A stretch of 45,997 nt of DNA from Burkholderiaceae bacterium (GTDB lineage Bacteria > Pseudomonadota > Gammaproteobacteria > Burkholderiales > Burkholderiaceae_C), in contig JACSRM010000227.1 in assembly GCA_014879745.1 (NCBI GenBank), forward strand, positions 1 to 45,997, in the 5' to 3' direction. Position numbers and translations under genes: made by a program. A model generated the notes under the pieces. That model was not told the DNA's origin. It searched no databases and saw only the letters and a list, made by a program, of their open reading frames with translations. Shown here piece after piece: positions 12,425 to 37,685 of this stretch (positions are counted from its first letter, which is position 1; each line of letters starts with the position of its first letter).

Positions 12425-13545
12425 GCAACAGCCTCGTACGGGCGACGCTGCTCGCCGCCGCACTGCTCGCCCCGCTGCTCGCCATCGCGCACGGCGACGA
12501 GGACCACGGGCCAAGCGAGGCCCCCGCCGCCGCAACGCTGCCGAGCGGCAGCGCGCCGCAGCGCCTGCCCGACGGCAGCGTCTTCGTGCCGAAGGCGGTG
12601 CAGCACCAGCTCGGCGTGCGAACCGAGCTTGCGACGCTCGGGCCGCTCGCGGCGTCGGTCGAACTCAACGGCCGCGTCGTCGCCGACCCTGCCGCGAGCG
12701 GCCTCGTGCAGGCAAGCCAGCCGGGCCGCATCGAGCCGCCGGCAGCCGGCCTGCCGACGCTCGGCCAGAGGGTCGCGCAGGGGCAGGTGCTGGCCTGGCT
12801 GCGGCCGGCGGCGAGCAGCATCGACATCGCGAACCAGCGCGCGCAACTCGCCGCGCTCGACGCCGAGGCCGCGCTTGCCGCCAAGCGTGTCGAACGCGTC
12901 GAGCAGCTCGAAGGCGCGCTGCCGCAAAAGGAGATCGACGCCGCGCGCGTCGAGCGCGCCGCGATCGACAAGCGCCGCGCCGCGGTGCGCGCGAGCGTCG
13001 ATCGCGCCGAAGCGCTGCGCGCGCCGGTGGCGGGCGTGATCAGCGCCGCGGCGGTGAGCGCCGGCCAGGTCGTCGATGCACGCGAGACGGTGTTCGAGGT
13101 CGTCGATCCGGCGCGCCTCGCGGTCGAGGCGCTCGCCTACGACCCGGCGCTCGCGCAGGGCATCACCAAGGCATCGGCCGCGCTGCCGGGCGGCGGCACG
13201 GCCAAGCTCGGCTTCGTCGGCGCCGGCCGCCAGTTGCGCGAGCAGGCGCTGCCGCTGCTGTTTCGCGTCGCCGCCGCCGACGCGCCGCTCGCCGTCGGCC
13301 AGCCGCTCGCGGTGACGGTGCAGACCGGCCGCAGCGTCGAAGGCGTCGCGCTGCCGCGCGCGGCGCTCGCTCGCAATGCGGCCGGCGACTGGATCGTCTG
13401 GCTGCACACCGGCGCCGAACAGTTCGCGCCGCGCAAGGTCGCGTTCCAGGCGCTCGACGCCGGCCGCGTCGCGGTCACCGCCGGTGTGCACGGCGGCGAC
13501 CGCGTCGTGACGCAGGGCGCGAGCCTGCTCGGCCAGGTCCGGTAG
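12421..13545 (+). CDS. HME-RND periplasmic adaptor (membrane fusion protein)
   Basis: HGDEDHG leader, LRPAASSIDIANQRAQL coiled coil, APVAGVISAAAVSAGQVVDARETVFEVVDPARL; stop codon lies in the MITE-like element TIR. Confidence 0.9.
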   Translation: MSNSLVRATLLAAALLAPLLAIAHGDEDHGPSEAPAAATLPSGSAPQRLPDGSVFVPKAVQHQLGVRTELATLGPLAASVELNGRVVADPAASGLVQASQPGRIEPPAAGLPTLGQRVAQGQVLAWLRPAASSIDIANQRAQLAALDAEAALAAKRVERVEQLEGALPQKEIDAARVERAAIDKRRAAVRASVDRAEALRAPVAGVISAAAVSAGQVVDARETVFEVVDPARLAVEALAYDPALAQGITKASAALPGGGTAKLGFVGAGRQLREQALPLLFRVAAADAPLAVGQPLAVTVQTGRSVEGVALPRAALARNAAGDWIVWLHTGAEQFAPRKVAFQALDAGRVAVTAGVHGGDRVVTQGASLLGQVR

Positions 13546-13810
13546 GGCCTGTTCACACTACGGGAAGAGACCGCGTTGTGACCAGGAATGCCGCAGGCAA
13601 GGCGCAAACCGCAGCCGGGTTGGACACCCGGCGAGGATTTGCAACGCCGCATGCGGCATTCCTGGCCGCAACCCGAAGGGAAGGCCCGCCGGCACGGGCC
13701 ACTTATCGTTGCATCGTTTGCCCGCACGTCAGTCCCGTCGGCGCGCTGCGCCTGGATTGGCCCGTGCCGGCGGGCCTTCGCGGCCCTTCCCGTAGTGTGA
13801 ACAGGCCCTA
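13543..13810. mobile_element. MITE-like non-autonomous element with perfect 25-bp terminal inverted repeats
   Basis: TAGGGCCTGTTCACACTACGGGAAG (13543-13567) / CTTCCCGTAGTGTGAACAGGCCCTA (13786-13810); internal perfect inverted repeats 13582-13595/13652-13665 and 13681-13701/13758-13778. Confidence 0.85.
13596..13651. repeat. Palindromic core repeat, copy 1
   Basis: GGCAAGGCGCAAACCGCAG-[CCGGGT..ACCCGG]-CGAGGATTTGCAACGCCGC. Confidence 0.75.
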
Positions 13811-13811
13811 A

Positions 13812-33814: not shown

Positions 33815-34060
33815 AATTATCCTGGAAACGGCAGTTGACCTCTGCGGATTCTCACGATCGCCACGTAAACACAGACGTTGCAGGCTCCGACCGCATTCAC
33901 CCTTCAGGTGAGCGCGCTACGCACTCGCCGTCGCCGCGCTCGACGCGCCAGGCGGCGTTGCTCCTCCTCGCGGGCACGAGCCCGCAGCGTCGTCGCGCCT
34001 TGCCTGACACCCCGATCACGGCACCGGTGAGCGCGTTCAACTGCCGTCTCCAGGATTATC
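33815..34060. repeat. Region bounded by imperfect 26-bp inverted repeats (possible MITE-like element)
   Basis: AATTATCCTGGAAACGGCAGTTGACC (33815-33840) versus reverse complement of 34035-34060 GATAATCCTGGAGACGGCAGTTGAAC, 22/26 match. Confidence 0.55.
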
Positions 34061-36028: not shown

Positions 36029-36234
36029 CAGTAACCCCGGATCCGGCAGTTGGACGCGCCCGAGCGGGCCGCCCTCGGGTGCGATAGCAAGGCGCAAACC
36101 GCAGCGATAGCACCCGCTATCGCGAGGATGTGCAACGCCGCGAGCGGACTCGAGGGCGGCTCGATCGGGTGCGCAGCGCTGTCACCCGGGCGATGGGCGT
36201 GGTCGTGGGAACGAATGACGACAGGCATGGACAT
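36028..36234 (-). CDS. Putative 68-aa single-TM small membrane protein
   Basis: MSMPVVIRSHDHAHRPGDSAAHPIEPPSSPLAALHILAIAGAIAAVCALLSHPRAARSGASNCRIRGY; TGATG overlap with downstream cytochrome b fusion. Confidence 0.45.
   Translation of the reverse strand: MSMPVVIRSHDHAHRPGDSAAHPIEPPSSPLAALHILAIAGAIAAVCALLSHPRAARSGASNCRIRGY
36087..36142. repeat. Palindromic core repeat, copy 2
   Basis: GCAAGGCGCAAACCGCAG-[CGATAGC ACCC GCTATCG]-CGAGGATGTGCAACGCCGC. Confidence 0.75.
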
Positions 36235-36254
36235 TTCCGGCGAGAGCGCAGCGG

Positions 36255-37685
36255 TCAGCTGCCGGACCCGGGGTCGGTCCTGCGCCGCAGCGCGCCGATG
36301 ACGACGACGACGAACAGCAGGCCGCCGACGATGGCGATCAGGCCGCCCAGCCCCATCAGCCCCATGCCGGCGATCTCGGCGCTGCTGCGCAGCACCTGCT
36401 CGGTACCGGCGACCTTGCGCTGCACGCCGTAGCCGCCCGACCAGACGAGGCCGACGATGTGCAGCAGCTGCCCGAAGCCGTAGAGCGCGGGCTGCCAGGT
36501 CGCGAGCCGGCCCTGCGGCGTGCCGTAACCCATGCGCGGCAGCAGGTGGTAGACGAGCCCCATCAGCGCGAGCGTGACGCCGACGATGCAGCCGTGGTAG
36601 TGCGCCGGGATGCGCACGTTGCTGCCGCTGATGAAGATGCCGATCACGCCGCCGGCGCCGAACAGCAGGACCGAGGCCACCAGCGCCGAGCGCAGCGGCC
36701 GCGCCTGCAGCGTCGCCGCCGGTGCGCCGGCAAGCGCGGCGACGACGGCGAGCGCGATCGGCACGATCGCGACCCCGCCGCCCAGGCGCATCGCCCAGGT
36801 CAGCGCGTCGCGGTGCTCGACCGACGCGATATCGTGCGCGAGGTAGGCATACGGCGTGACGAAGACGCTGACGAGCGCGAGCATGAACATCAGCAACGTG
36901 ACGCGCGGGCTGAGCGCGACGCGCGCGCCCGACGCCCCGGCGAGCCAGAGCCAGGCGACGAGCATCAGCAGCGTCCACGTGAACTGCAGCGCATGGCCGC
37001 CGCCCCAGAACAGGATCTCGTAGTACGCGCGGCCCTCGAGCGTGAGCGGCAGCACGGCGAACGACCAGCCGAAGGCGAGCAGCGCGACGGCGGTCGCGAC
37101 GACGCTCGCGTTCAGCCCGAAGCGCAGCGCGCCGCCGCCGTCGAAGCTCGCGCCCAGGCGCGGCGCGAGCCACAGCGAGCGCAGCACGAGCAGCGCGGTG
37201 CCGACCGCGAACAGCAGCAGCCCGCCGAGGAAGGCCGCGCCGTCGAGCACCGGGATGTAGTTGGCCATCACCGCCTCGCCGCTGCCGACGAAGGGCGCCA
37301 GCGACATCGCGAGCGCGCCGGCCGCGGCCAGGCCGAGCGCGGTCCACGCCAGACCGAGCGCGCGCGGCGCGCCGATCAGGCTCCACAGCAGGCCGGCGAT
37401 GGCAATGAACCAGACGAGGACCGAAAGATCGACGTGGACGACGAGCGCGACGCGAAAGAAGTCGGCGCTCGGCAGCAGCTTGTTGACCCCCGGCGTTCGC
37501 GCCAGCACGAGCAGGACCGAGAACACGCCGGACAGGACGAGCGCACCGAGACCGAGTGCGAGCCAGCCGCGCGCCAGGTCGCGGCGGGCGTCGGCCGGCA
37601 CCGCGAGCGTGTATTCGGTGTCGTGGCGCGCCTGCGGCAGCGCGGCTGCGCGCCCGGCGGGCACGGGGGCGAGGTGCGCGCTCAT
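36255..37685 (-). CDS. Divergent heme-copper oxidase subunit I homologue with atypical CuB site
   Basis: VVHVDLSVLVWF, FWGGGHALQFTW, IPAHYHGCIVGVTLALMGLVYHLLPRMGYG; no HH pair at the CuB position. Confidence 0.85.
   Translation of the reverse strand: MSAHLAPVPAGRAAALPQARHDTEYTLAVPADARRDLARGWLALGLGALVLSGVFSVLLVLARTPGVNKLLPSADFFRVALVVHVDLSVLVWFIAIAGLLWSLIGAPRALGLAWTALGLAAAGALAMSLAPFVGSGEAVMANYIPVLDGAAFLGGLLLFAVGTALLVLRSLWLAPRLGASFDGGGALRFGLNASVVATAVALLAFGWSFAVLPLTLEGRAYYEILFWGGGHALQFTWTLLMLVAWLWLAGASGARVALSPRVTLLMFMLALVSVFVTPYAYLAHDIASVEHRDALTWAMRLGGGVAIVPIALAVVAALAGAPAATLQARPLRSALVASVLLFGAGGVIGIFISGSNVRIPAHYHGCIVGVTLALMGLVYHLLPRMGYGTPQGRLATWQPALYGFGQLLHIVGLVWSGGYGVQRKVAGTEQVLRSSAEIAGMGLMGLGGLIAIVGGLLFVVVVIGALRRRTDPGSGS

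Follow-up and report, generated by a model that had tools for sequence, protein, structure and literature searches.

The window, that is the whole stretch of 45,997 nucleotides analysed here (contig JACSRM010000227.1 from a Burkholderiaceae bacterium), carries three copies of a structured core, GCAAGGCG…GCAACGCCGC, which is present about 31 times in the genome. Each copy is part of a larger element bounded by inverted repeats. The elements and their cores are the following:

13545..13808, plus strand: copy 1, whole MITE, defined from the sequence and the alignment of its terminal inverted repeats (GGGCCTGTTCACACTACGGGAAG), with TA on each flank
13595..13650, plus strand: core 1 of copy 1 (R2 model, 72.1 bits)
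13703..13758, minus strand: second core of copy 1, diverged and inverted (R2, 17.7 bits, E 3e-4 in a local search)
33820..34055, minus strand: copy 3, MITE absent from the earlier reading of this DNA; terminal inverted repeat TCCTGGAAACGGCAGTTG, with TTA on each flank
33952..34005, minus strand: core of copy 3 (R2, 46.3 bits, E 2.4e-6 genome-wide)
36035..36273, plus strand: copy 2, MITE of the 'mid' type with degenerate ends CCCCGGATCCGGCAGTTG / CAGCTGCCGGACCCGGGG, read from the sequence
36085..36141, plus strand: core of copy 2 (R2 model, 74.0 bits)

Copy 1 fills exactly the junction from the stop of a HlyD-type gene (hlyD) to the start of the adjoining AcrB-type gene (acrB). The same junction carries no insert in any of 13 orthologues (a congener with 78% protein identity and 12 more distant ones), in which 5-87 nt separate the two genes. 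Copy 1 is, by this comparison, an insertion between hlyD and acrB. Its region 13544-13811 has a folding energy of -190.7 kcal/mol (z -14.6), and its two cores are mutually inverted. A second, diverged and inverted core is a feature of the long-type elements to which copy 1 belongs, and it scores more strongly in others of them (L031, L056, L176 and L181). The relatives of copy 2 have GCCTAAATCCGGCAGTTG ends adjoining TNA, with a right arm of about 135 nt in L038, L063, L102 and L125; in copy 2 itself the ends are degenerate and no clear target duplication was found in the sequence. A relative of copy 3 in the same genome (L156) has TCA on both flanks. The window also contains a direct repeat of 52 nt with 92% identity (63-114 and 1273-1324). 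Its first copy immediately follows a partial tRNA gene at the start of the window, and the repeat may be an attachment site or a duplicate of the tRNA 3' region.

The sequence-only reading of this DNA had described copies 1 and 2 as a palindromic element with a conserved frame and alternative central stems. It did not include the third copy (core at 33952-34005, minus strand) or the larger inverted-repeat element around each core. The two copies that it described are present, their model-defined cores (13595-13650 and 36085-36141) lying 1-2 bases away from where it had placed them. The central stems GCCGGGT/ACCCGGC and GCGATAGC/GCTATCGC fold as claimed, as do the outer stems, which differ between the copies and are paired in both. 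In folding energy the two cores surpass every one of 200 shuffles (z -7.7 and -5.2). A half of the frame (20 bases, up to 3 mismatches) has 3 occurrences versus 0.03 expected by chance. Further copies, which the idea of a family calls for, are found in the genome (10 by exact pattern, 28 and 32 by covariance models with E up to 0.1), and the stems covary strongly in 75 diverse copies.

In the helices of the core the sequence can be replaced completely while pairing is retained, and the unpaired bases are near-invariant. The latter form a left AA bulge (bases kept in 61/70 and 69/70 copies), a right CAA bulge (66/70, 69/70 and 68/70) and a GCA/RA internal loop; the constant feet of the core are GCAAGGCG / CAACGCCGC. 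In the 62 cores that a pattern search gave, changes in the central stem are compensated; the invariance of the frame is uninformative in this set because the frame was fixed by the search pattern. Among 75 diverse copies found with the model the frame helix also changes (CAAACC/GGATTTG, CAAAGC/GCATTTG, CGTCCC/GGGGCG, CAATGT/ACATTG and GAAAACGC/GCATTTTC), and the alignment, which was fitted to the structure and is hence biased towards it, has 217 double-change cells versus 55 in shuffles and 29-41 for slid pairings. For this reason more weight falls on two alignments built from sequence alone. Compensation is seen at 38 of 66 pairs in the first (26 elements, IS630-type ends) and at 33 of 54 in the second (25 elements, mostly IS5-type ends). 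Selection on the structure of the core, which had been proposed from the two copies, is well supported by the covariation in these sets.

Pairs of the G·T and A·C kinds should be equally frequent if both strands could fold. On the CAAGGCG strand G·T prevails over A·C in the IS630 set (73 versus 13; per-base-pair sign test, p 0.002) and in the IS5 set (40 versus 10; p 0.008). The consensus pairs used in this count came from an RNA folding program that slightly favours G.U, and pairs whose commonest form is not Watson-Crick were excluded. This excess points most naturally to one single strand, either RNA or ssDNA, as the form whose folding is selected. The structured RNA suggested by the sequence-only reading is still a candidate since one strand is favoured. 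The cores are evenly distributed with respect to replication (74 leading and 76 lagging in 5 genomes, with origins placed coarsely from sampled GC skew), which weakens a role as ssDNA.

The elements around the cores are non-coding, with 160-270 bp between the inverted repeats, no transposase gene, and a right arm of about 56, 135 or 162 nt. Clear terminal repeats are found in 136 elements and in none of the shuffled control. By sequence their ends form about 26 groups, and the target flanks differ by set, being TA or CTAG, TNA, or CTAR (CTAG/CTAA). On these sequence traits the elements can be firmly placed among the MITEs. Two distinct members of the family lie head to tail between two genes at L005:1440-1768, with one common CTAG.

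The ends lead to two transposase families, IS630 and IS5, whose assignments are confirmed by NCBIfam and which were absent from the earlier proposals. Genome G356 has an IS630 element (L188; NCBIfam E 1.8e-86) with 18-nt ends, CTAGTGTGGTGTTTCAGA, identical to MITE ends found there. Genome G225 has IS5-family elements with ends GAGCCTGTTTACGATCTT and GGGCGTGTCATCAAAT, which are near MITE ends of other genomes and not those seen in G225; the ends of the IS5 elements L200 and L209 resemble the GAACCTGTTTACGATCTT and GGGCGTGTCATC MITE types. No confident core was found inside the insertion sequences examined, and in this analysis most of the about 26 end groups had no match among complete insertion sequences. 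In L059 an apparent insertion sequence with a type-A end and no core starts at the contig end beside a MITE. The same contig has four CRISPR-DR9 repeats (Rfam) at L059:3218-3467, directly beside the start of an IS630-type end and about 400 bp from a MITE. Movement in trans by DDE transposases is well supported for the groups matched to IS630 and IS5, and by extension may apply to the rest. With one core between varied ends, several of which match core-less IS630 or IS5 elements, the family is a MITE lineage that keeps its core while its ends follow different transposases.

The core is widespread. In the family to which the window belongs it was found in 150 of 250 sampled genomes (60%) and 103 of 141 genera, and the number of cores ranges from 15 to 94 in five single-contig genomes, the maximum being reached in a genome of 3.28 Mb. 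Scoring covered the best first-look candidates only, which makes all these counts minimum values. A sample of the phylum gave a match in 28 of 398 genomes, including one from another order of the same class and several from families beyond the class. A pattern scan of named genomes gave at least 118 stretches with the core, almost all from Burkholderiales among the matches listed (Comamonas, Acidovorax, Variovorax, Polaromonas, Roseateles, Verminephrobacter, Castellaniella and others). One exact core lies on a contig labelled Desulfovibrionaceae (L023, from a MAG), through mis-binning or transfer between phyla. The draft genome G551 has at least 20 cores of identical score, a sign of a probable recent burst of movement in it. 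A phage feature is ruled out, as the exact core is found in just 2 of 2.9 million virus contigs. The intergenic bias is strong: 84% of the cores lie outside predicted genes versus 14% of random positions (16% versus 86% inside, with a home-made gene caller). One element is directly adjoined by a fluoride riboswitch (L162:1355-1453). The elements have no match at gathering level in Rfam 15, with sub-threshold miRNA hits only, and literature searches found no published description of this core or MITE family. It is apparently a very common and undescribed family.

Several other readings of the hairpin have to be weighed. The earlier suggestion of a REP-like family or a Y1/RAYT recognition hairpin is now very unlikely; in such a system a RAYT (Y1 HUH) transposase would bind the folded single strand, and the inverted double cores would be REPINs. 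The strand-specific bulged hairpin and the inverted pairs do recall REPs and REPINs, and a Y1_Tnp gene is present in all 15 element-bearing genomes tested. Such a gene is found, however, also in 15 of 20 genomes of the same order without a core match, and ten Y1 genes had no confident core within about 1.5 kb. The cores also lack the lagging-strand bias that would favour RAYT, and they sit inside MITEs whose terminal inverted repeats and TA/TNA/CTAR targets are typical of DDE elements, not as free REPs of 20-40 bp. Long near-palindromes are known to undergo template-switch correction. Switching between the arms of a quasi-palindrome could make stems covary by mutation alone, without function, and the arms of the elements pair along their whole length. 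This process should nevertheless erase bulges, whereas those of the core (AA, CAA, GCA/RA and A) have been retained. Neither does it predict that G.T should outnumber A.C on one strand, and the same core between unrelated ends speaks against template switching alone; we consider this reading disfavoured and quite improbable. Note that an attC-like reading, made on sequence only, was rejected: the two constant feet have their AA on one and the same strand, and they make no R''/R' box pair.

Two further readings concern what the favoured strand is. It could be ssDNA, a transposition or replication intermediate that is folded and recognised on one strand. The strand specificity of the fold and its weak link to gene orientation are consistent with this; the cores show no replication-strand bias, however, and neither IS630 nor IS5 is known to pass through a single-stranded intermediate, and we regard this form as unlikely. 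It could alternatively be an ordinary mRNA hairpin, namely a 3' UTR stabiliser, a terminator or an RNase III site, as has been proposed for ERIC and NEMIS. The strongly intergenic position of the cores would suit such a role. Their orientation relative to the upstream gene is nevertheless near random (54 with and 38 against, not significant, n=92), which counts against a simple cis role in mRNA, and 19 of the 92 sites lie between divergent genes. Copies 1 and 2 have no U-tract after the core hairpin, and pairing alone would leave the invariant bulges unexplained. There is perhaps one chance in five that the core is a hairpin of this ordinary kind.

The family can be compared to known systems. 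RUP of Streptococcus pneumoniae is a non-coding MITE of IS630-Spn1, of about 107 bp, with a TA target and ends that match the IS630 element (PMC2229807). The present elements share with it the non-coding MITE organisation, the TA target and ends matching an IS630 element. RUP differs in that it involves one species and one transposase, and a core common to several insertion-sequence families is not reported there (PMC2229807). ERIC and NEMIS/Correia are imperfect palindromes of 100-200 bp that give long hairpin transcripts, ERIC and NEMIS ending in TA (PMC2229807); the likeness lies in their being imperfect palindromes of such a size. Kinship to ERIC was rejected, the best R2 score at E. coli ERIC being 3.6 bits, which is not significant. 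REPs are defined by a size of 20-40 bp and a GTAG or CGTC tag (PMC3733652), to which the feet GCAAGGCG / CAACGCCGC do not conform. REPs and REPINs with their RAYT resemble the family in having strand-specific bulged hairpins, often as inverted pairs, but the cores of this family, unlike REPs, are surrounded by the terminal repeats of DDE elements. The Bor-1 and Bor-2 repeats of Bordetella, also in the Burkholderiales, are intergenic structured stem-loops of 93-167 bp (PMC2267715) and may be relatives of this family.

The explanation that we favour, and that we hold to be probable, is one old and widespread MITE lineage that is moved by IS630 and IS5 transposases and whose core is folded single-stranded and bound by a putative factor. 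DDE transposases of the IS630 and IS5 families would recognise the terminal inverted repeats and move the elements in trans. The CAAGGCG...CAACGCCG strand would fold while single-stranded and would most likely be a transcribed RNA hairpin; RNA is likelier than ssDNA in view of the wobble pattern and the absent replication bias. A putative host or element factor would bind the conserved bulges and internal loops and help the element to persist or spread. The need for the core would be independent of whichever transposase moves the element, which would account for its retention while the ends change. The alignments show a structured and strand-specific core that is retained across changes of ends; that it acts as a factor-bound RNA is what we infer.

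The usual view of MITEs is that of deletion derivatives with drifting interiors. In this family conservation is highest in the interior and it is the ends that change; the strand-specific covariation extends over 160 nt. We propose tentatively, at somewhat less than even odds, that the core is a transposase-independent structured module, RNA or ssDNA with a putative factor, which MITEs have long kept while switching between IS630-like and IS5-like ends and which aids their spread or tolerance across Burkholderiales and beyond. The family offers a testable case of a non-coding transposon with a structured function apart from its transposase and, if this is true, many unannotated intergenic hairpins would be accounted for.
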